64,000 nucleotides of DNA from NCBI GenBank assembly GCA_016188575.1, contig JACPHN010000044.1, forward strand, positions 1 to 64,000. Direction: 5' to 3'. Position numbers and translations under genes: made by a program. Below, one piece after another: positions 29,408 through 57,423 of this stretch. The notes beneath the pieces were generated by a model, which was not told the DNA's origin, did no database searches, and worked only from the letters and a program-made list of their open reading frames with translations. Each line of letters opens with the position of its first letter. Position 1 is the first letter of the stretch. The stretch comes from Candidatus Schekmanbacteria bacterium. Its GTDB lineage: Bacteria; CSSED10-310; JACPHN01.

Positions 29408-29482
29408 GCGGGCCGGTGTATATGGATGGCGCCCCGGAGACAGGTCCCGGGGCGGAGAATCTCCGCAGAGAGCCCTTCCCGC

Positions 29483-30634
29483 ATGTCGGCCGTTCCATTT
29501 GTCAACCTGATCGCCCAGCATCGCGGCCTGCGCGATGAGATCGCTGCAGCGCTCGATCGCCTGGTTTCGTCCGCGAGCTTCATCGGGGGCGAAGCGGTAG
29601 CGGCGTTCGAAGCGGCCTGCGCCGCGCGGCTCGGGGTGTCTACTACCTGCGGCGTGGCCAATGGTACCGATGCGCTGCAGCTTTGCTTGCGTGCGCTCGG
29701 CATCGGCCCCGGTGATGAGGTCATCGTCCCCGCGCTCACGTTTTTCGCCACCGCCGAGGCGGTCGCGCTGGTGGGCGCCGAGCCGGTCTTTTGCGACGTG
29801 GACGAGGACACGCTGGTGGTAGGCCCGGATCAAGTTGCGCCGAGACTGAGCGCGCGCACGCGAGCCATCATGACGGTGGACCTGTACGGCCGCCTGGCGC
29901 CGGTGCGGGCCATCCGCGAGCTCGTCGCCGATCGCGGCATTCACGTCATCGAGGACGCCGCGCAGTCCTTCGGCGCTCACGCGGCCGCGCGCGGTGACGC
30001 CCGCGTCGCCGATGCCGTAACGTTCAGCTTCTATCCCACCAAAAACCTGGGCGCATGTGGCGACGCGGGACTTGTCGCTTGCGCGGATCCCGGCTTGCTG
30101 GATCACGTCCGGTCGCTCGCCAACCACGGCCGCCAGGCGCACTACTTGCACGGGGCAGTGGGCACCAACAGTCGTCTCGACGCTTTCCAGGCGGCAATTC
30201 TGGCGTTGAAGCTGCCCTACCTCGACACCTGGACGCGACGTCGCCGGCAGCTCGCGCTGCGCTACTGGCGGCACCTTCAGGGCCTCGAGACCCTCGTGCC
30301 GGTGAGCGCCGATGTGCTCCGGGCCTACGCCGGCGGCGCCGCCGCGGAGGTGGCCGAGCACGTCTGGCACCTCTTCGTGATTCGCGTTACCCGCGGCCGG
30401 CGCGACGAGCTGGCGCACGCCCTAGGGAGTCGGGGAATCGGTACCGCCGTAGCCTATCCAGTGCCTCTGCCTCATCTCGACGCGTTCAAACACCAGGGCT
30501 ATCAGCGCGGCGACTTCCCCGCTGCGGAGCTCGCCGCTGAACAGGTCCTCTCGCTGCCTCTTTACCCGGAGCTCGCCGACGCGCAGGTAGATTTCGTCGC
30601 GGAATCGTGCGGGCAAATCCTCCGCAGCTCATAG
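29483..30634 (+). CDS. DegT/DnrJ/EryC1-family sugar aminotransferase
   Basis: The protein has 383 residues from ATG 29483. The fold-type-I PLP features are FVNLIAQHRGLRDEI, GVANGTDALQLCLRALGIGP, IEDAAQSFGAH and the internal aldimine lysine in SFYPTKNLGACGDAG. The late sugar-binding loop VWHLFVIRVT and AVAYPVPLPHL are typical of nucleotide-sugar aminotransferases. It likely makes an amino sugar from a keto-sugar nucleotide produced by the adjacent RmlB. A longer in-frame start at 29426 adds no conserved residues. Confidence 0.9.
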   Translation: MSAVPFVNLIAQHRGLRDEIAAALDRLVSSASFIGGEAVAAFEAACAARLGVSTTCGVANGTDALQLCLRALGIGPGDEVIVPALTFFATAEAVALVGAEPVFCDVDEDTLVVGPDQVAPRLSARTRAIMTVDLYGRLAPVRAIRELVADRGIHVIEDAAQSFGAHAAARGDARVADAVTFSFYPTKNLGACGDAGLVACADPGLLDHVRSLANHGRQAHYLHGAVGTNSRLDAFQAAILALKLPYLDTWTRRRRQLALRYWRHLQGLETLVPVSADVLRAYAGGAAAEVAEHVWHLFVIRVTRGRRDELAHALGSRGIGTAVAYPVPLPHLDAFKHQGYQRGDFPAAELAAEQVLSLPLYPELADAQVDFVAESCGQILRSS

Positions 30635-30770
30635 CTTCCATGTGCTCGGCAAATGCACACCTGCGCCTTGTCTCGGGTCGCACCGCCTCTCAGCGCTCGC
30701 CGCGCGGGTGCCGGCCAGCAGCGCTCAGGTTTTCACCTCAACCAAGAAAGCTTCTCACGGGCGGTTCGCA

Positions 30771-31883
30771 ATGGCCACAACTGACGCGTGCCTTCAGGAA
30801 ACTCCTCAGCTCCCGACCCCGCTACTGGTAACGGGCGGAGCGGGCTTCATCGGCAGCCACTTTGTCGAGCACATGCTATTGATGCATCCCGCGCTGCGTA
30901 TCGTCGTGCTCGACAAGCTCACCTACGCCGGCCGCAAGGAAAATCTGGCCGACGTGGAGGCGGAACCGAGCCTGGCGAAGCGGTTGCGCTTCGTCCATGG
31001 CGACATCGCCGATCGCGCGCTTGTAGGCGAGCTCCTCAAGAAGGAGCACATCGCGGCGGTCGTCAACTTCGCGGCCGAGACCCACGTGGATCGCTCACTT
31101 CACGAGGCGATCGACTTTCTGAACACCGACGTGGTCGGCGTGTATCAGCTCCTCGTTGCCGCCAGACAACACAACGTCAGCCGCTTTGTCCAGGTATCCA
31201 CCGACGAGGTGTACGGGTCCGTCGAGTCAGGTGCCTCCAAGGAATCGGATCCGATGGAACCGCGATCGCCGTATTCTGCCAGCAAGGCCGCGGCTGACCT
31301 CATGGCGCTTGCGTTCTTCACGTCCTACGGCATGCACGTCTCGATCACGCGTGGCTCCAACACCTATGGTCCGCGGCAGTTCCCTGAGAAGCTCATCCCG
31401 CTCTTCATCACCAACGCGCTGGAGGATCGACCGCTGCCGCTGTATGGAGATGGCAAGAACGTCCGCGACTGGTTGCACGTGCGCGATCATTGCCGGGGAA
31501 TCGAGGCGGTGCTCATGCGCGGGGAAGCGGGGAGCATCTACAATATCGGTGGAGACTGCGGCAAAACCAACCTCGAAGTTACTGAGGCGATACTCAACAT
31601 CATCGGCAAGCCGACTGCCTTGATTCGCTTCGTACAGGACCGGCCCGGGCACGACCGGCGGTACGCGCTGGACACCTCGCGCGCGCGGCGGCTGGGGTTT
31701 CAACCGCAGACGAACTTCGAGCTTGGCCTGCGCCAGACGGTGCTCTGGTATCGCGACAACGTCGACTGGTGGAAGTCCGTGATTCATCAGGACAAGGACT
31801 TTCGCGCCTACTACGAGCGCCAGTATGGAAATCGTCTGAGGAATGGGGTGGAGGCCTTGGCGGAATCTGGTCATGGGGAATGA
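30771..31883 (+). CDS. rmlB: dTDP-glucose 4,6-dehydratase
   Basis: The protein has 370 residues from ATG 30771. Typical RmlB elements are LLVTGGAGFIGSHFVEHML, VVLDKLTYAGRKENL, NFAAETHVDRSLHEAIDFLN, VSTDEVYGSVESG, YSASK and NTYGPRQFPEKLIPLF, with the late YGDGKNVRDWLHVRDH and RPGHDRRYALD. It forms dTDP-4-keto-6-deoxyglucose. Its partners RmlA and RmlC are not in the window. The 136 bases upstream (30635-30770) contain no gene and could hold a promoter. The next gene starts 11 bases before its stop. Confidence 0.93.
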   Translation: MATTDACLQETPQLPTPLLVTGGAGFIGSHFVEHMLLMHPALRIVVLDKLTYAGRKENLADVEAEPSLAKRLRFVHGDIADRALVGELLKKEHIAAVVNFAAETHVDRSLHEAIDFLNTDVVGVYQLLVAARQHNVSRFVQVSTDEVYGSVESGASKESDPMEPRSPYSASKAAADLMALAFFTSYGMHVSITRGSNTYGPRQFPEKLIPLFITNALEDRPLPLYGDGKNVRDWLHVRDHCRGIEAVLMRGEAGSIYNIGGDCGKTNLEVTEAILNIIGKPTALIRFVQDRPGHDRRYALDTSRARRLGFQPQTNFELGLRQTVLWYRDNVDWWKSVIHQDKDFRAYYERQYGNRLRNGVEALAESGHGE

Positions 31884-32724
31884 GCGCGTCGTGGTCACCG
31901 GCGGGGCAGGAATGCTGGCCCGCGACCTCGTGAAGGTGTTTACAAACCAGTACGAGGTTACCTGCCTGCCCCGCGCGGCGCTCGACGTAGCTGACGAAAA
32001 CGCGGTGCTCTCATGCTTTCGCGAGCTTCAGCCGAACGTCGTGCTACATGCGGCGGCATACACGCAGGTCGACAGGGCGGAAATGGAATCCGCTGAGGCG
32101 TTCCGCGTCAATGCTTCCGGGGCGCGCGCGGTCGCCCGGGCGAGTGCCGCCGTGGGCGCCTTTCTGGTTGCATATTCCACGGATTTTGTGTTCTCGGGTC
32201 TGGCGTCCGCGCCCTACGGTGAGGAGGCCCAGACCGGTCCACTGTGCGCGTACGGGCGCTCGAAGCTCGCCGGTGAGCTGGCGGTCCAGGAAGAAACTGA
32301 CCGCTACGCCGTGCTGCGCACGGCCTGGCTCTATGGCGCCGGCGGTGGCTGCTTTCCAAAGACCATGCTCCGCCTCGCGGCAGCCGCGGACAAGCCGCTG
32401 GCGGTCGTCTGCGACCAGTTCGGCTCGCCGACATTTTCTGGAGACCTCGCGGCATTGACGGTCGCGGTTGTGCGCCTGCGCTGTCAGGGCCTCTATCACG
32501 CCGTCAACGAAGGGGTCGTGTCGTGGTTCGAGTTTGCTCGGGAAGTCTTGCGGTGCGCCGGCGTGGCCCGCGGCGTGACGGCGATCGGTAGCGACGAGCT
32601 CGACCGCCCGGCGAAGCGCCCCGCCTATTCGGCGCTGTGCACGCGGCGGCTCCGGTCCGCCATACGGCTGGCACCGCGATCCTGGCGAGAGGCGCTGGCC
32701 GACTTCCTGGAGGAGATCAGGTGA
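31873..32724 (+). CDS. rmlD: dTDP-4-dehydrorhamnose reductase family enzyme
   Basis: The protein has 283 residues from ATG 31873, overlapping rmlB by 11 bases. It shows VVVTGGAGMLARDLVKVF, VVLHAAAYTQVDRAEMESAE, YSTDFVFSG, the catalytic YGRSKLAGE and LRTAWLYGAGG, all RmlD signatures. It reduces the 4-keto sugar to dTDP-L-rhamnose if the RmlC epimerase is supplied elsewhere, or makes a related 6-deoxy sugar. The next gene starts at the GTGA overlapping this stop. Confidence 0.9.
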   Translation: MGNERVVVTGGAGMLARDLVKVFTNQYEVTCLPRAALDVADENAVLSCFRELQPNVVLHAAAYTQVDRAEMESAEAFRVNASGARAVARASAAVGAFLVAYSTDFVFSGLASAPYGEEAQTGPLCAYGRSKLAGELAVQEETDRYAVLRTAWLYGAGGGCFPKTMLRLAAAADKPLAVVCDQFGSPTFSGDLAALTVAVVRLRCQGLYHAVNEGVVSWFEFAREVLRCAGVARGVTAIGSDELDRPAKRPAYSALCTRRLRSAIRLAPRSWREALADFLEEIR

Positions 32725-33725
32725 GCAGCAGCCAGCAGCAGCAGCGGCGCGCCCTGGTCACCGGCGCGGCCGGCTTTGTGGGCCGCCACTTGTGTCGTGA
32801 GCTCGCCGCTCGCGGCGTGATCGTGCATGGCACGCGCCGGCCGCATCCCGGTCAGAGCGTCGCGATGGTCGAAGCTGCCATGCTGCACGAGGCCGAAATC
32901 TCCGACCGGGAGCGCCTGACCGCGATTCTGCGGGAGGTTGAGCCTACCGAGATCTACCACCTTGCCGGCCTCGCCGACGTCGGCGCCGCCTGGCGCCAGC
33001 GCGAGCAAACCTACCGCGTGAATGTCTGGGGCTGTCTCGAGCTCCTCGAGGCGATCGTCACCATTGGCATGACGAACGCTTCGCTGCTCGTCGTGGGCTC
33101 CTCGGAGGAATACGGGACCGTGCCCGCGGAGGAGCAGCCGATACACGAAGACCGACCCCTGGCACCGCGCAGCCCTTACGGCGCCAGCAAGGCTTGCCAG
33201 GAGATCCTGGCGTGCCAGTACGCGCGCGCGTTCGGGCTCGGCGTGCTCGTCGCGCGCCCATTCAACCACGCCGGCCCCGGGCAGCAGACGGGTTTCGTCT
33301 GCTCGGACTTCGCCCGTCAGATCGCGGCCATCGAGCTCGGCCTGGAAGAAGCGCCGCTCCGTGTCGGCAATTTGTCCGCACAGCGCGATTTTACCGACGT
33401 GCGCGACGTGGTGCGAGCATACGCGGATCTGATCGAGAAGGGGCGCCCAGGGGTTGCCTACAACGTCTGCTCGGGGCGGCCGGTGCCCATCGAGGACATT
33501 CTCGGGATTCTGCGCGAAAGCGCGCACCAGCGCATCGCCGTCGCGCGCGACAGCGAGCGGATGCGGCCGAGCGATACGCCGATATTTGTCGGCAGCAGCG
33601 AGCGCCTGCAGCGCGACACGGGGTGGTCGCCGCAGATTGCTCTCGAGCAGACGCTGCGCGACGTCCTCGCGTACTGGCGCGCGACACTCGGCGCGGAAGG
33701 CGCTTCTGCGCGCCGCGGTCCCTAG
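32721..33725 (+). CDS. GDP-mannose 4,6-dehydratase-like SDR
   Basis: The protein has 334 residues from GTG 32721, with GGAGGAGATCAG upstream and the GTGA overlap with rmlD's stop. It has LVTGAAGFVGRHLCREL, EIYHLAGLADVGAAWRQREQ, VGSSEEYGTVPAEEQP and YGASK. The GMD-type RPFNHAGPGQQTGFVCSDFA, RDFTDVRDVVRAY and TPIFVGSSERLQRDTGW are also present. These point to GDP-mannose 4,6-dehydratase or the GDP-6-deoxy-lyxo-hexulose reductase (Rmd) subgroup. So the operon mixes dTDP- and GDP-linked deoxysugar steps. It is convergent with the glycyl radical enzyme, 17 bases away. Confidence 0.88.
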   Translation: MSSSQQQQRRALVTGAAGFVGRHLCRELAARGVIVHGTRRPHPGQSVAMVEAAMLHEAEISDRERLTAILREVEPTEIYHLAGLADVGAAWRQREQTYRVNVWGCLELLEAIVTIGMTNASLLVVGSSEEYGTVPAEEQPIHEDRPLAPRSPYGASKACQEILACQYARAFGLGVLVARPFNHAGPGQQTGFVCSDFARQIAAIELGLEEAPLRVGNLSAQRDFTDVRDVVRAYADLIEKGRPGVAYNVCSGRPVPIEDILGILRESAHQRIAVARDSERMRPSDTPIFVGSSERLQRDTGWSPQIALEQTLRDVLAYWRATLGAEGASARRGP

Positions 33726-33742: not shown

Positions 33743-36223
33743 CTACGGCATCCCGTGCTCCGCGCGCGAAATGATCTCGTTCTGGGTACTTGGCGTGAGC
33801 TCCACGAAGCGCGCACTGTAGCCGGAAATGCGCACGAGCAGATCCCCGTACAGGTGGGGCTGGCGCTGCGCGTCGCGCAGGACCTCCGAGCTGACCACGT
33901 TCACCTGCAGATGCTGCCCGCGCAGGCGGAAGAAGTGCGCCTTCACGAGGCTCTTGAACCACCCGGCATCGCCTTTCGACGCGAACAGGCGGGGGTGGAA
34001 TCGCAAGTTGGCGGAGGTTCCACCGATCGTGCGCGTGGCGTCGAGGCTCGCGATCGACTTCAGCGTCGCCGTATAGCCCTTGCGCTCGCGCCCCGAGGCC
34101 GGGCCGACGCCCACGGAAAGCGGCTCCGTCGCCTTTCTGCCGTCGGGGGTCGCGCCCACGGCTGCGCCGTAGACGACGTGGCCGGACTCGGAGTGAAAAC
34201 CCAGCCCGTGCAGTCCGCCGCGAAAGGTCTTGCGCGACATCAGGGCGTCATGGAAGCGCCCGACCAAATCAGCCGCAACCTCGTCTGCCCGCGGATCGCC
34301 GTTGCCGAATTTCGGGATCTTGTTAAGGAGATAGAGCCGATCGGCCTCGCGGGAGACGAAGTTGGCGCGAAGCAGGCCGCGGAGCTCCGGCAGCGAGTAC
34401 CGCTGCTCCTCGAACACCGCCGACCGGATGGCGGTCAGCGAATCGGCTAGCGTGGCCAGGCCCACCAGGCTGATCCCGGTGAGGTTGCCGCGGGCTCCAC
34501 CGGATTTCACGTCCCGGCCCGATGCCAGCGTGCCCTCGTGGAAAATCGACACGAAGGAGTCCGGAATCAGCTCGCTCTGCGCCGCATCGACTTTCGCCAG
34601 GGCGCCCATCGTCACGTCCAGAACGTCCTCGGCGAACGCCGCGTAGGCGTCCTCAAAGGAGGCGAAATCCGCGTGCCCGTCTGCGGCCGCGCCGTGCACG
34701 AAAAGCTCGAGCGTCCGCGGCAGGTTCACGAACGCCGCGCAAACCGAACCGTAGGCGCCGCGCGGCGCCGGCTGGACGCACCCGGCGATAATGTAGTCGC
34801 GAGCGTCCGCCAGGGAAAAACCATGGTGCAGGAAGCCGTCGACAATGACCGCATCGTTGAACACGTGCAGGGCGTTCGCGCCGCTCGTGAGGACTTCCAT
34901 GACGCGGTCGGTGAACGCCTCCGGCGATTCTTCGTGCAGGCGGGCGGCGACGTTCGGCTGCAGGAAAGGTGCCGATTCGAGCGCGTCCAACACCATGAAC
35001 GACAGGTCCGACGTCACGTCGCGGCCATCCGCGTTGATCCCCCCGATCGTCAGGGTCAACCGGCCCGTGTTGCCGTCCTCCCAGAGATTGGCGCCGTTCT
35101 CGAGGAAGAACACCAGCTCGTTCGCTTTCACGAAAAACGCCTCGACCAGCTCGCGCGCCGCCTCCCGCGTCAGCCGCCCGGCCGCCAGATCCCGCTCGTA
35201 GTAGGGGCGCAGGATCACATCAAAGCGCCCGAACGGCACCTCGGACCCGCCGTCGTGCAGCACCATGCCCAGATAGAGGAACCAGTACGCCTGAATGGCC
35301 TCGCGAAAGGTCTGCGGCGGCTGCTCCGGGACCGCGCGCAGCGTGCGCGCCATGTCCAGGAGCTCGGCGCGCCGCTGAGCGTCCTGCGTCTCCACCGCGG
35401 CCAGGCGCTCGGCTTCGCCGGCATACCGCCTGGCCAGCGTGATCAGCGCTGCCGCCGAGACGGCGATCGCCTCATGGAATGCCCGCTGCGGCGCGCCCGC
35501 CCCCGCCGCTTCCGCCCGCTCGCGCGCCTCGCGTGCCACGTCCAGAAGCCCCCGGCTCATCACGCCCGCGATGTCCGGATTGTACAGGTTCACCGCGAAC
35601 TGGTTGTCGGCCGTGTACGCGAGCTTGCGCTGCAACGCCTTTTCGCGGCGGGTCAGCGACGACCAGTAGCGGCGATAGGAGGTCCGGGTGCGCCAGTAGG
35701 GAAGCACTTGCCGGCGCAGCCGCGCGCGGTCCTGAGCCGCGATGTGAAACGCCTGAGAGCTCCGCGTCTCGAAACCGTCGAGGGCGCGGTCGAGCAGCAG
35801 GGCCACGGCGGGCCGCATGGCACGCAGCCAGGGACTGAACGGCGCGGCAGCCCGCGTTGCCACCAAAACCGCCGCCGAGGCGGCGTGCTTCGCCACGCGA
35901 CGCCAGGGGCCGTCGACGCGGATGCCGCCGGCCTTGATCTCCGGGAAGATCACCGCGCCACGGCGCTTTTCGGTCATGCTGCCGGCGATCAGCTCACCCG
36001 GATAAATGCGGACCGGGATCTCCTCCATCACCGCCTGGTTTGCGAGCGCGCGCCGCAGGACGAGCGGCTGGCCGTCGTGGCGCGCAAACTCCCGCGTGAA
36101 GATCTCGGCGCGGAGCGTCGAGACCTCGAGGCCCGCTTTCCAGCTTTTCTCGTGCAGCGCGCGCGTGCGTGGTGTTGACAGACCCTGGCGCACGACCGGC
36201 GCCGCCATGGTAGCGATATCCAT
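33743..36223 (-). CDS. Glycyl radical enzyme (PFL/dehydratase superfamily), atypical GCVQP active site
   Basis: The protein has 826 residues from ATG 36223, with AGGAG 7 bases upstream. The PFL-type N-terminal domain (ELIAGSMTEKRRGAVIFPEI) and core (TVGG-like RLTLTIGGINADGRD) are clear. The thiyl-radical cysteine is C482 in DYIIAGCVQPAPRGAYGS. The glycyl radical loop near the C-terminus is RISGYSARFVEL, with G801. Most eliminases of this family have GCVE, with the glutamate as base; here it is glutamine (Q484). No radical-SAM activase is present in the window, though one is required for activity. It is preceded by an ArsR-type gene on the same strand. Substrate unknown; the enzyme would work only without oxygen. 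Confidence 0.88.
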   Translation of the reverse strand: MDIATMAAPVVRQGLSTPRTRALHEKSWKAGLEVSTLRAEIFTREFARHDGQPLVLRRALANQAVMEEIPVRIYPGELIAGSMTEKRRGAVIFPEIKAGGIRVDGPWRRVAKHAASAAVLVATRAAAPFSPWLRAMRPAVALLLDRALDGFETRSSQAFHIAAQDRARLRRQVLPYWRTRTSYRRYWSSLTRREKALQRKLAYTADNQFAVNLYNPDIAGVMSRGLLDVAREARERAEAAGAGAPQRAFHEAIAVSAAALITLARRYAGEAERLAAVETQDAQRRAELLDMARTLRAVPEQPPQTFREAIQAYWFLYLGMVLHDGGSEVPFGRFDVILRPYYERDLAAGRLTREAARELVEAFFVKANELVFFLENGANLWEDGNTGRLTLTIGGINADGRDVTSDLSFMVLDALESAPFLQPNVAARLHEESPEAFTDRVMEVLTSGANALHVFNDAVIVDGFLHHGFSLADARDYIIAGCVQPAPRGAYGSVCAAFVNLPRTLELFVHGAAADGHADFASFEDAYAAFAEDVLDVTMGALAKVDAAQSELIPDSFVSIFHEGTLASGRDVKSGGARGNLTGISLVGLATLADSLTAIRSAVFEEQRYSLPELRGLLRANFVSREADRLYLLNKIPKFGNGDPRADEVAADLVGRFHDALMSRKTFRGGLHGLGFHSESGHVVYGAAVGATPDGRKATEPLSVGVGPASGRERKGYTATLKSIASLDATRTIGGTSANLRFHPRLFASKGDAGWFKSLVKAHFFRLRGQHLQVNVVSSEVLRDAQRQPHLYGDLLVRISGYSARFVELTPSTQNEIISRAEHGMP

Positions 36224-36309: not shown

Positions 36310-36636
36310 CTAGGCGCAACATCCGAGCGCCAGACACTGGCGCACCAGCGATGCGAGCGCCTCCAGCCGCGCCAGCATGGTCTCGCCGTCGATGGCATAG
36401 AGCACATGCCGCCCTTCCTTTCGGCGTCTGAGCAGGCCCGCCTCCGCCATCTGCGCGAGGTGACGCGAGACTACCGAGGTGTCCTGGGGCATCTCCGCCG
36501 CGATCGCCGCCACGTCCGCCCACGGCCGGTGGGCGAGGCGCTCGAGCAGGCGAATGCGCACAGGGTCGGCCATGGCGCGGAAAAATGCCGTGTCGAGATT
36601 GTCGAAGAGCTGCTGAACGGAACAGGTCTGGTCCAT
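36310..36636 (-). CDS. ArsR/SmtB-family transcriptional regulator
   Basis: The protein has 108 residues from ATG 36636. The winged helix reads FFRAMADPVRIRLLERLAHR, ADVAAIAAEMPQDTSVVSRH, then LAQMAEAGLLRRRKEGRHVLY. Cysteines C5, C101, C106 and C107 (LVRQCLALGCCA) could form a metal- or thiol-sensing site, although the usual ELCVCDL motif of arsenic repressors is absent. It lies 86 bases upstream of the glycyl radical enzyme on the same strand and is the obvious candidate regulator of it. Confidence 0.85.
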   Translation of the reverse strand: MDQTCSVQQLFDNLDTAFFRAMADPVRIRLLERLAHRPWADVAAIAAEMPQDTSVVSRHLAQMAEAGLLRRRKEGRHVLYAIDGETMLARLEALASLVRQCLALGCCA

Positions 36637-36654
36637 GGTGTACCTCGCGCCTTG

Positions 36655-36675
36655 ATATATGCATTCATGCGCAAC
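36655..36675. promoter_or_regulatory. Candidate operator of the ArsR-type regulator
   Basis: About 20 bases upstream of the regulator start, in an AT-rich patch, GCATTCATGC (36661-36670) is an inverted repeat GCAT-TC-ATGC set within ATATATGCATTCATGCGCAA. ArsR proteins usually bind imperfect palindromes over their own promoter. Position and symmetry support autoregulation; there is no direct evidence. Confidence 0.35.
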
Positions 36676-37555
36676 TGTGCAAGTATGGCGCGAACCCGGG
36701 GACCGCATGGGGCGGCGGACCGCGTTGCCAGGCCAATCGCTGCTGTGGGCGAAAGCCGGAATCCCGTTCTGGTGTTGGTGTCGAGGAAAGAATCGACCAA
36801 CGCCGGCACCGCGCGCTCGTCCGCCATGCCTCCAAGCTCAGTCGTGGCATAGTCGAAGACCGCCGCGCGGCGGACGCTCGGACGGTAGTCGCTAGACTCG
36901 AGGCGAGTCAGCCCCAGGCTGCACCTCCGCGAGGGGCCGAGTTTCTCCGGGCGCCATTGTCGGATTGGATCGAGGCCTACCAGAACAACACGGCCCGATG
37001 ATCCCCGGCCCGGCATTGGGGCCTGATGAGGCGCGCCCTGCTCAGCCAAGCCCGCGGTGGGAAGAAGTCTATAGGACGAAACCGGACATTCGGCCGGCGC
37101 CCGGTTCTGTCTGGCGAAGCGAGGCGAAACAAGCAGTCATGTCCGACGCCCACGGACCGTTAGCCATGCACGCCGCTAGAACGATCCATCGACCCCATCC
37201 GTGACGGAGCCCGCAACTCCCAGCGTCTTACCGAGCGAAAGTTGCGCGAGGCGCGGCGCCTTCCACGGCAGACGCCGCTCACTGCCGTGATGCGACCTCT
37301 CTTTTTCGCGGTCCGAGTGGTCCGATGATGACCCGGAATCTCCTGCAACGGGAGCACGGTGGTCCATGTCTATTGCCATCTCCGCTGAAAGGGTATGGGG
37401 AGCAGTGCTGACGGCGCCAATACCATCGCACTGCCTCGCTGTCAAGCAGGCCCCCCGTCACCGTGGTCAAGCAGCCGCCAGGCAGCCGACAACTCCTGGC
37501 CTCGGGCGCGTGCCTTACATTGTTGTGGATCGCCAGGTCAGACATTCGTTCCGAG
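36676..37555. other. 880-base stretch with no supportable gene
   Basis: Open frames exist on both strands, but none has a credible start with a ribosome binding site, a recognisable domain or coherent third-position bias. A minus-strand stretch near 36700-36890 (MADERAVPALVDSFLDTN) might be the remains of a gene. The right part of the stretch also shows weak coding character in several frames. It probably contains decayed sequence. Confidence 0.4.
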
Positions 37556-39202
37556 TCAGGGCGAAATGCGGTCCGCCGCGAGCTTCTGGACAACGGCCTC
37601 GAGCTGCGCGATCCGCGCCGACATCTCATCGATCCGAGCGTTCTTGGCTTCGAGCTCTGCCTGAAGCTCTTTTACGGCCACCAGCGCGACGCCGGCGACA
37701 TCCGAAACCGCGATTCCAGTACTGGATTCGCCGAGCCCAAACGCGGCGTGAAAATCCTCGGCAAACGGCCCCAGGTGCTTCACGGTCGGAGCATCGTGCT
37801 TGTAGCTCCACAGTGCAACCTCCAAGTTCTTCAGATGCCCGAGCACGTTCAATGACTCTGCCGATACCACATGCCCCTTGACCGCGCGACTCGAGCTCTG
37901 TGTCAAGGTGCCGGCGATCCACAAGTTCCCCGCCGCAGTGACCGCGAGGCGCAGGTCGGCGCCGTTATAGAAGGCGGCATTGCCGGCGGGGTAAAGACGC
38001 AGGCTGGCGCCGGTGCCGTCCGACCGGCCGATCTCGAATCCGTCCGTGTACGTCGAGAAGTCAGTCATCCTGAGTCTCCACTGGACGCCCGAAGTCACAT
38101 GGTCCAGCAAGATGGTGGGTTGCGCGGGTCTGGCGAGATGGAGGCTGGCAGTCGGTCCGTACGTTCCGAGCCCGATGTTACCCGAGGCGGCGATGGCGAG
38201 ACTGTTCTGGGGGGAACCGGGAAAAATCCGGAACGGGAGCCTCGATCCCGCAGTTACGTCGCGCACGAAGAAGTTCGCCTCGTTGCCAGCGACATCCCAC
38301 GTCTGTGCCGTGTAGCCAGAGGTGCCGTCCTGGTTGAATCGGACGGCAGGCGTGTCACCGCTGACCACATCCACATCCTTGACCGGGGAGGAGGTGCCAA
38401 GCCCAAGGCGCCCGCTACTATCAATATAGAGTGACGAGGTCGGTGCGCCCGCAGTTACCAAGAAGGGCGTCCTGGCATTGGTAACGTCATCGATTGCAAA
38501 CATGCTCCGGCCGCCGCTAGAAGAATCATTTGCGGTCAGTTGCCAATCGTTGGAAGGAAATGATCCGGTCGAGCTCGTGTCGTCGAACTTGATTCTGAGG
38601 TTATTTTCCTTGAGGCGAATGGTATCGAAGTCAAAATTCTCGTTGTTTACACAATCGAGCCCCACGCACAGGCTGCCAATGGTGATTTGATCGTCGCTGG
38701 TCACGACATCGAAGGGTTGCGCCGTGCCACCGCGGGCTGCGCGATCTCCTGAGGCCGGACCTCGGCCGCCTGGCCCGGGTTCTTCGTCCAAGGGGATTTC
38801 GCCGTCGCGGACGGTGAACGCTCCGGTCATCGTCGCCACCACCGTAGGAAGACGTCTCGAGAGGACCGACGGGCGGCCGTCGGCAGCCAGATCGCTGGCG
38901 CTCGGGAAGCGGAACAAGGTCAGCTCGTAGCGGTAGCTTCCATCCTTGATTGACTTGCCATTCTTGTCATAAGTGCGGAAGACGATCTGCTTGTCAGAGC
39001 CGACCGATACATCACTAATTGCCGCATTGCCAACCGATATCTTCAGGTTTGCCCTGTGATAAGATACGTTTGGTATGAATAAGAGCTCCGACGGATAGAC
39101 CTGTAGCGAGACATCGTTAGAAGCAGAGAGCATGGAGCTCGACATAGATAAGGCGACAACAAACAGAATTGTCAGAACAGGCAGAAGCGGCGATCGTATC
39201 AC
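37556..39202 (-). CDS. Exported protein with C-terminal S74 intramolecular chaperone domain
   Basis: The protein has 548 residues from GTG 39202, with AGGAG 8 bases upstream. An N-terminal hydrophobic signal (LLPVLTILFVVALSMSSSML) leads into a beta-rich region. Repeated tail-fibre-like segments follow (SSLYIDSSGRLGLGTSSPVK, IAASGNIGLGTYGPTASLHL). The last 120 residues match the peptidase S74 chaperone of phage tailspikes: the self-cleavage region QSSSRAVKGHV with serine five residues before lysine, HLGPFAEDFHAAFGLGESST, and GVALVAVKELQAELEAKNAR with a coiled coil. Here it is on a secreted bacterial protein, so it probably trimerises a surface fibre and then cleaves itself. Extending the frame to 39451 adds nothing conserved. 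Confidence 0.8.
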   Translation of the reverse strand: MIRSPLLPVLTILFVVALSMSSSMLSASNDVSLQVYPSELLFIPNVSYHRANLKISVGNAAISDVSVGSDKQIVFRTYDKNGKSIKDGSYRYELTLFRFPSASDLAADGRPSVLSRRLPTVVATMTGAFTVRDGEIPLDEEPGPGGRGPASGDRAARGGTAQPFDVVTSDDQITIGSLCVGLDCVNNENFDFDTIRLKENNLRIKFDDTSSTGSFPSNDWQLTANDSSSGGRSMFAIDDVTNARTPFLVTAGAPTSSLYIDSSGRLGLGTSSPVKDVDVVSGDTPAVRFNQDGTSGYTAQTWDVAGNEANFFVRDVTAGSRLPFRIFPGSPQNSLAIAASGNIGLGTYGPTASLHLARPAQPTILLDHVTSGVQWRLRMTDFSTYTDGFEIGRSDGTGASLRLYPAGNAAFYNGADLRLAVTAAGNLWIAGTLTQSSSRAVKGHVVSAESLNVLGHLKNLEVALWSYKHDAPTVKHLGPFAEDFHAAFGLGESSTGIAVSDVAGVALVAVKELQAELEAKNARIDEMSARIAQLEAVVQKLAADRISP

Positions 39203-39508
39203 GGTACTAGCTCCTGAGGGGAGGATGAGGAAATTCGCATGGGCACTTGGAGAAAGGGCCGGCAACCGGTCACCGCCGCCGCCAGGGGGGAACTCGTGAA
39301 AGAGTCTGCAGCAGAGGTCGCCGAGCATTTGCGAGGCTGCGCCAACGACATTCCGAATGCTCCGAGATTTATCTTCTTGCCTTGTCACTCGCGCCAATAG
39401 CCCATCGCCTGCACCCCCGGGGGCGGCCGGCTGCCGGACACACCCATTCATCGACAGGCCTGTTGCTTGCCCGCGCGACTCGATGACAGACGAAGTAAGG
39501 GCTTCATA
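39203..39508. other. Spacer without a supportable gene
   Basis: These 306 bases separate the S74 protein gene from the asparagine-synthetase-like gene on the same strand. I see no leader-peptidase gene, RNA or clear hairpin here. It must hold the promoter of the S74 protein gene. Confidence 0.4.
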
Positions 39509-57350: not shown

Positions 57351-57423
57351 TGGGCGATACTGGACTTGAACCAGTGACCCCTGCCGTGTGAAGACAGTGC
57401 TCTACCAACTGAGCTAATCGCCC
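57351..57423 (-). tRNA. tRNA-Val (anticodon CAC)
   Basis: On the minus strand the 73 bases fold as a standard cloverleaf. The acceptor GGGCGAT pairs with ATCGCCC. The D arm is GCTCAGTTGGTAGAGC. The anticodon stem CTGTC/GGCAG encloses loop TTCACAC with anticodon CAC. The variable loop GGGTC is followed by the T arm ACTGG-TTCAAGT-CCAGT. The discriminator base is A and the 3' CCA is not encoded. It reads GUG valine codons. Confidence 0.95.

Follow-up and report, generated by a model that had tools for sequence, protein, structure and literature searches.

A glycyl radical enzyme with glutamine at the CXE position and a rebuilt pocket in a Candidatus Schekmanbacteria genome

We analysed a 64,000-nucleotide stretch of contig JACPHN010000044.1 (C160; referred to hereafter as the window) from a Candidatus Schekmanbacteria assembly (GCA_016188575.1, genome G000). 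Its minus-strand open reading frame (ORF) at 33743-36223 encodes P0001, an 826-residue glycyl radical enzyme (GRE) with the motifs GCVQP (C482, Q484) and RISGYSARF (G801). P0001 has CVQ where GRE eliminases have the CXE motif, and it groups with three genes of one other genome (G327), designated P0002, P0003 and P0004, which share its unusual pocket. We put at about an even chance that P0001 is functional and belongs to a new GRE clade of narrow distribution, with a rebuilt pocket in which R388 holds an anion. The departure from the GRE norm is real and non-trivial, and either the substrate of P0001 or its chemistry is probably one so far undescribed for the family.

Results

The gene and its product

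The ORF, its coordinates and the residues C482, Q484 and G801 were found exactly as given in a preliminary description of this DNA. P0001 matches the Pfam families PFL-like (478 bits) and Gly_radical (83 bits); the conserved glycine of the radical domain (G801) and the catalytic cysteine of the Cys loop (C482) are both in place. An AlphaFold model (pLDDT 89.4, pTM 0.91) has the GRE barrel fold, and its top structural matches in Foldseek and VIA-align are glycerol (GD) and propanediol (PD) dehydratases (Z ~50). Confidence in the model is below 50 at residues 1-9, 101-103, 117-142 and 514-516. The insert of about 47 residues also has low model confidence, and its GC3 matches the remainder of the gene. 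Coding bias is normal over the whole gene, and an AGGAGA stretch lies upstream of the ATG at 36223. P0001 retains 59 of 65 near-invariant columns (0.91), the columns counted being those with a uniformity of 92% or more across 68 other full GREs; the median of the other GREs is 0.97 (range 0.68-1.00). Its six misses include Q484 and the change of Tyr579 to Gly. Judged from its sequence, P0001 is an intact-looking, oxygen-sensitive radical enzyme of a small, unassigned branch in a known family.

The pocket

Pocket residues were compared across 103 aligned GREs, 4 from the clade and 99 others. The set is biased to P0001-like sequences in that nearly all of them were retrieved with P0001, P0002 or the profile of the clade as query; counts for the others are out of those that have a residue at the column in question. 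Glutamine two residues after the thiyl cysteine had been called unusual, and this was borne out: Q484 (GD E435) occurs in 3/4 clade members and in 0/98 other GREs, and Glu occupies the column in 91/97 others in the alignment made before GD was added. Six residues, at columns that belong to the pocket lining of known GREs, define the clade and are present in all four members: L213 (GD H164; others 0/97), E328, R388 and C495 (Table 1), H677 (GD Y640; others 0/96) and E679 (GD S642; others 0/96). D383 (others 1/95), N385 (1/94), K573 (4/96) and R805 (3/95) are likewise found in 4/4. His is present at column 213 in 83/96 other GREs, 82 of which pair it with Glu at column 484; the clade has lost this His in 4/4 members and the Glu in 3/4. 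The register of the columns is backed by R177, W334, C420 and G735 of PflB and by D220, F399, C493 and E495 of CutC, all of which fall in pocket columns. We take these to be the published R176, W333, C419 and G734 of PflB and D216, F395, C489 and E491 of CutC.

The GRE literature drawn on comprises PMC8473560, PMC7077986, PMC12583861 and PMC11574389 (including a limonene paper, about succinate synthases). According to these sources, changing the CXE Glu to Gln abolishes the activity of both IslA (isethionate sulfite-lyase) and HypD (trans-4-hydroxy-L-proline dehydratase), which implies that a natural, retained Gln reflects a different use of the pocket. The same sources place IslA Trp374 3.5 Å from the thiol and the glycyl carbonyl, describe arginines that hold the anionic substrate in the IslA pocket, and assign acid-base catalysis in HypD to Asp278, with the CXE Glu positioning the substrate. 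The preliminary description had made the CXE Glu the base in several lyases; this is its classic role, but for the hydroxyproline lyase the HypD paper assigns it to positioning. Structures of the CutC E491Q mutant are present among PDB entries. Searches of open-licence PMC text for 'GCVQP', for a GRE catalytic glutamate or glutamine, for a GRE with a tetratricopeptide gene cluster and for GRE E491Q with choline returned nothing relevant.

Comparison with known GREs

As the preliminary description had proposed, P0001 is an uncharacterised GRE. It scores far below the NCBIfam equivalog cut-offs used for HypD, CutC, HpsG/HpfG, PflD-type, HPAD, IAD and PFL, and membership of a known class was rejected on these cut-offs and on its position in the tree. 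Against TIGR01774 (PFL2/glycerol dehydratase subfamily) it reached 532 bits relative to a cut-off of 678.2, although one genuine CutC and genuine HypDs score slightly under this value too.

The B12-independent glycerol and 1,2-propanediol dehydratases (1r8w, 5i2a, 9rcp) share with P0001 the fold (VIA-align Z 49-51, rmsd 1.7-1.8 over 764 residues), the radical Gly and Cys, and ~30% identity, yet every one of the GD pocket residues H164, S282, Y339, E435, D447 and Y640 is replaced. HypD shares the fold and the radical residues, and E328 appears to sit one column from its acid-base Asp278 (by motif register, not superposition). In contrast to HypD, P0001 has neither the CXE Glu nor a His at the H160 column, has Arg for F340, scores 411 bits against a cut-off of 1100 and lies on a separate branch. 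CutC (choline TMA-lyase) has the same fold and is the top PDB sequence match, but it has Asp at column 213 together with CXE, and P0001 reaches only 377 bits against 1050. IslA sets the precedent for a GRE that grips its anionic substrate with arginines in the pocket; these are contributed by other positions, however, CXE is kept, and Trp374 occupies the R388 position (equivalence by spacing from the Cys). Pyruvate formate-lyase (PFL) resembles P0001 in lacking Glu two residues after the cysteine (Ser in PFL), in having Arg at the R805 column and in having two pocket cysteines, though placed elsewhere. It differs in that its two cysteines are adjacent and that column 213 is occupied by Arg; P0001 scores 183 bits against the PFL cut-off of 994, and the fold match has Z 35. 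X-succinate synthases (BSS, MasD) gave weaker matches as well (165-196 bits, Z 38-41).

Relatives of P0001

A domain-wide sample of 386 genomes was searched with P0001, and 39 had a match at E<=1e-90. Besides the window's own genome, a score >500 bits was reached only in G327, whose order and phylum comprise 3 genomes in the collection searched. G327 carries three P0001-like GREs, P0002 (GCVQP), P0003 (GCIQP) and P0004 (GCVEP, with the CXE motif). They are 39-41% identical to P0001 by alignment (41-43% in local matches), while P0002 shares 58% identity with P0003 and likewise with P0004. With two further GREs of another genome carrying the Gln, sequencing error or chance was rejected as its origin. 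In a 45-row GRE tree whose references were CutC, PflD, YbiW, PflB and an Enterococcus GRE, and in which L017 and L034 pass the HypD cut-off, P0001-P0004 form a single branch (support 100/100) that attaches to none of the reference classes. Within it, P0002 and P0003 make a weakly supported pair (96/55), and this branching leaves two options: a single gain of the Gln followed by reversion in P0004, or two separate gains. Another natural departure is seen in the HypD-like part of the tree, where the GRE at L087:1162-3573 (G076) reads GCVTIS, with Thr for the CXE Glu.

No clade member was recognised in IMG/VR or in a Chloroflexota sample of 380 genomes, 13 of which had a hit at E<=1e-150 (14 places). 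Twelve of these places were read as loci; 11 gave an ORF new to the set, none with the pocket signature, and the twelfth, L163, is the same as L075. At an E cut of 1e-195, 0/7 genomes in the phylum of G332 and 0/58 in the phylum of G064 had a member. Of 72,556 plasmid records, 151 matched, all at <60% identity (best 10 of 151 listed), and a contig scan with short exact P0001 peptides (29 loci) gave no relative above 37% identity in the best segment. The cut of 1e-195 was set only slightly stricter than the score of the best outsider. When each member was left out in turn, P0001, the most distant of them, reached 686 bits and the best outsider 624 bits; with so narrow a margin, a more distant clade member may have escaped. 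These negatives hold for the genomes named and say nothing on absence elsewhere. On the sequences sampled, the clade appears new and narrowly distributed.

Activases

The absence of an activase near P0001, reported in the preliminary description, is confirmed: the genome has 12 TIGR02494 matches, and all of them lie on contigs other than C160. G000 has three full GREs (C66, C119, C160) and a GRE fragment on C19. The genome-wide search that had been suggested found three full activases that pass the TIGR02494 cut-off (C119, C66, C162), one of them without a GRE neighbour; an activase fragment on C19 scored below the cut-off. The C119 and C66 activases abut their own GREs. The orphan on C162 (L042:10090-11136) is flanked by a PapA/condensation-type gene and by one that, judged from its sequence, is probably metallophosphatase-like, and a PFL-like profile search found no GRE on C162. 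In the activase tree the C162 activase groups with that of C119 (99/93); both belong to a branch of six rows (93/83) in which the activase adjoining P0003 stands outermost.

An activase beside the gene in relatives, named beforehand as a finding that would count against the preliminary description, is seen in part. In G327 an activase (L104:3838-4806) adjoins the Gln-type P0003, and a single neighbouring activase is common to two of the three clade genes there, but no activase was called around P0002 in the stretches read (L103, L150). Since the C162 activase has no neighbouring GRE, trans activation of P0001 is plausible but unproven, and the same applies to P0002.

The second GRE of G000, L001:1105-3810 on C66, reads GCAEW and keeps the Glu. 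It is accompanied by an activase of its own, and a TetR-type gene lies upstream. The GRE and activase fragments on C19 (L004, L008, L043; a 9.75-kb contig) resemble the C119 pair and may be a degraded copy or an assembly piece.

Gene neighbourhood

The sole close same-strand neighbour of P0001 is an upstream ArsR/SmtB-type gene (NF033788, 65.3 bits against a cut-off of 55), in agreement with the earlier statement that this is the only linked gene; the downstream neighbour is convergent. In G327 a TPR/TAtT-like gene precedes each clade GRE (3/3) and a divergent TetR-type gene is present at both loci. P0002 is followed by a DMSO-reductase-family subunit and then a 4Fe-4S protein. P0003 is followed on one strand by the activase, a URO-D/MtaA-like methyltransferase, an ArsP_1-type permease (178 bits) and a methyltetrahydrofolate methyltransferase. 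Across 169 GRE loci, many of them short-flanked, no GRE outside the clade had a homologue of the ArsR, TPR, ArsP, TetR, DmsA or URO-D gene nearby. Co-occurrence with the ArsR gene, which the preliminary description had suggested testing, was not seen in these loci, and context does not fix the substrate. Three COX1 matches exceeded the cut-off in G000, in support of the aerobic respiration suggested earlier; the host, with three GREs, is probably able to respire oxygen.

Nucleotide-sugar clusters are convergent beside the stand-alone Gln-type GREs P0001 and P0002, which may be coincidence. A 631-residue ORF upstream of the ArsR-type gene (37556-39451, minus strand) has no Pfam or NCBIfam match, and the window has one tRNA gene, tRNA-Val(cac), at 57351-57423 (minus strand).

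Table 1. Positions of P0001, its key codons and associated genes (window coordinates unless a locus is given)
Feature	Position	Strand	Basis or remarks
GRE P0001, 826 aa	33743..36223	-	ORF, profile matches, predicted model, fold matches
Thiyl Cys482 codon	34778..34780	-	Cys in 98/98 other GREs
Gln484 codon (GD E435 position)	34772..34774	-	column alignment
Cys495 codon (GD D447 position), clade-specific	34739..34741	-	clade 4/4, others 0/98
Arg388 codon (GD Y339 / HypD F340 / IslA W374 position), clade-specific	35060..35062	-	clade 4/4, others 1/97; position computed from residue number
Glu328 codon (GD S282 position), clade-specific	35240..35242	-	clade 4/4, others 0/98; position computed from residue number
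Radical Gly801 codon	33821..33823	-	Gly in 95/95 other GREs
Insert, ~47 residues (98-145), Ala-rich	35789..35932	-	alignment; missing in three clade relatives
ArsR/SmtB-type regulator	36310..36636	-	likely start Met25 of ORF 36310-36708 (inferred); 86 nt before GRE start codon
Nucleotide-sugar clusters	window 29426-33725; L103:502-5359; L150:12311-18662	+ (window)	DegT-type aminotransferase, dTDP-glucose 4,6-dehydratase-like, epimerases
ArsP_1 permease, URO-D/MtaA-type and methyltetrahydrofolate methyltransferases	L104:3-3264		downstream of Gln-type GRE + activase

Discussion

The sequences are best read as those of an active GRE for an anionic substrate, with the acid-base groups moved elsewhere in the pocket. 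A radical SAM activase encoded elsewhere in the genome (the best candidate being the C162 orphan, otherwise that of C119) would make the G801 radical at low oxygen. G801 would pass the radical to C482, which would abstract a hydrogen atom from the substrate, as in other GREs, and later return it to the product radical. Q484 could form hydrogen bonds but not deprotonate; since Gln is unable to act as a base, the acid-base steps would fall to E328, E679 or H677. R388, beside the Cys/Gly pair, would hold an anionic group (carboxylate, phosphate or sulfonate). The net reaction may be an elimination, a C-C cleavage, an isomerisation or another, and the ArsR-type protein probably controls the gene.

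Several observations weigh against this proposal. P0004 has the same pocket with Glu two residues after the cysteine, so that the Gln may matter less than it appears. P0001 is slightly under typical GRE conservation and has Gly for the near-invariant Tyr579, and the clade is known from two genomes only. The C162 activase is nearer to the C119 activase than to that of P0003, and its partner could be something else.

It is possible, though we favour it less, that the clade consists of eliminases after all. Its members would still split off a leaving group from a substrate bearing a hydroxyl or amino group; the base would have shifted along the strand to E328, one column from the position of HypD Asp278, and the Gln would only position the substrate. 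The closest folds are dehydratases, P0004 retains CXE in the same pocket, and HypD uses Asp278 for acid-base chemistry and its CXE Glu for positioning only; against this, the Glu and the column-213 His are both gone from P0001 and no known dehydratase pocket is retained. The earlier suggestion of a non-eliminase is possible: it gains from the missing CXE but is weakened by P0004 and by E328, E679 and H677, which could carry out acid-base steps. A further case, a reaction undescribed for GREs, would suit a pocket that mostly lacks the CXE carboxylate, has no His partner and has Arg beside the Cys/Gly pair; C495 might then relay the radical or carry an acyl group like the PFL Cys pair, built elsewhere in the barrel. 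We regard this specific scheme as doubtful.

That P0001 is a decaying or non-catalytic paralogue, in which the Gln and Tyr579Gly mark loss of function and the protein perhaps has a structural or radical-storage role, is unlikely. The lack of an adjoining activase, the six near-invariant columns missed, which place it under the median of other GREs, and an insert unseen in relatives all fit decay, but the radical Gly, thiyl Cys and glycyl loop are intact and coding bias is normal all along the gene. The pocket residues are also identical across four genes in two genomes, a pattern that decay is not expected to give. Still harder to credit is a metalloid-linked GRE, with an organo-arsenic (or similar) compound formed or cleaved by the enzymes of the clade. 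The ArsR-type gene upstream of P0001, and the ArsP_1-type permease and methyltransferases after the Gln-type GRE and activase of G327, suggested it; both links, however, are to broad families, homologues of these genes lie near no other GRE in the loci surveyed, P0002 is followed by the DMSO-reductase-type pair instead, and open-licence PMC text held nothing relevant on GREs with arsenic and arsR.

The GRE family is known to tailor its pocket to many substrates, and the pocket of this clade lies within that family. An annotation by homology alone, as formate acetyltransferase or as glycerol dehydratase, would very likely be wrong. P0001 also illustrates a GRE for which the activase has to be looked for in other parts of the genome. 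A natural clade mostly without the CXE glutamate, together with a tandem paralogue that has Glu in the same pocket, is a ready test of the role of that residue and of where else GREs place their acid-base chemistry.
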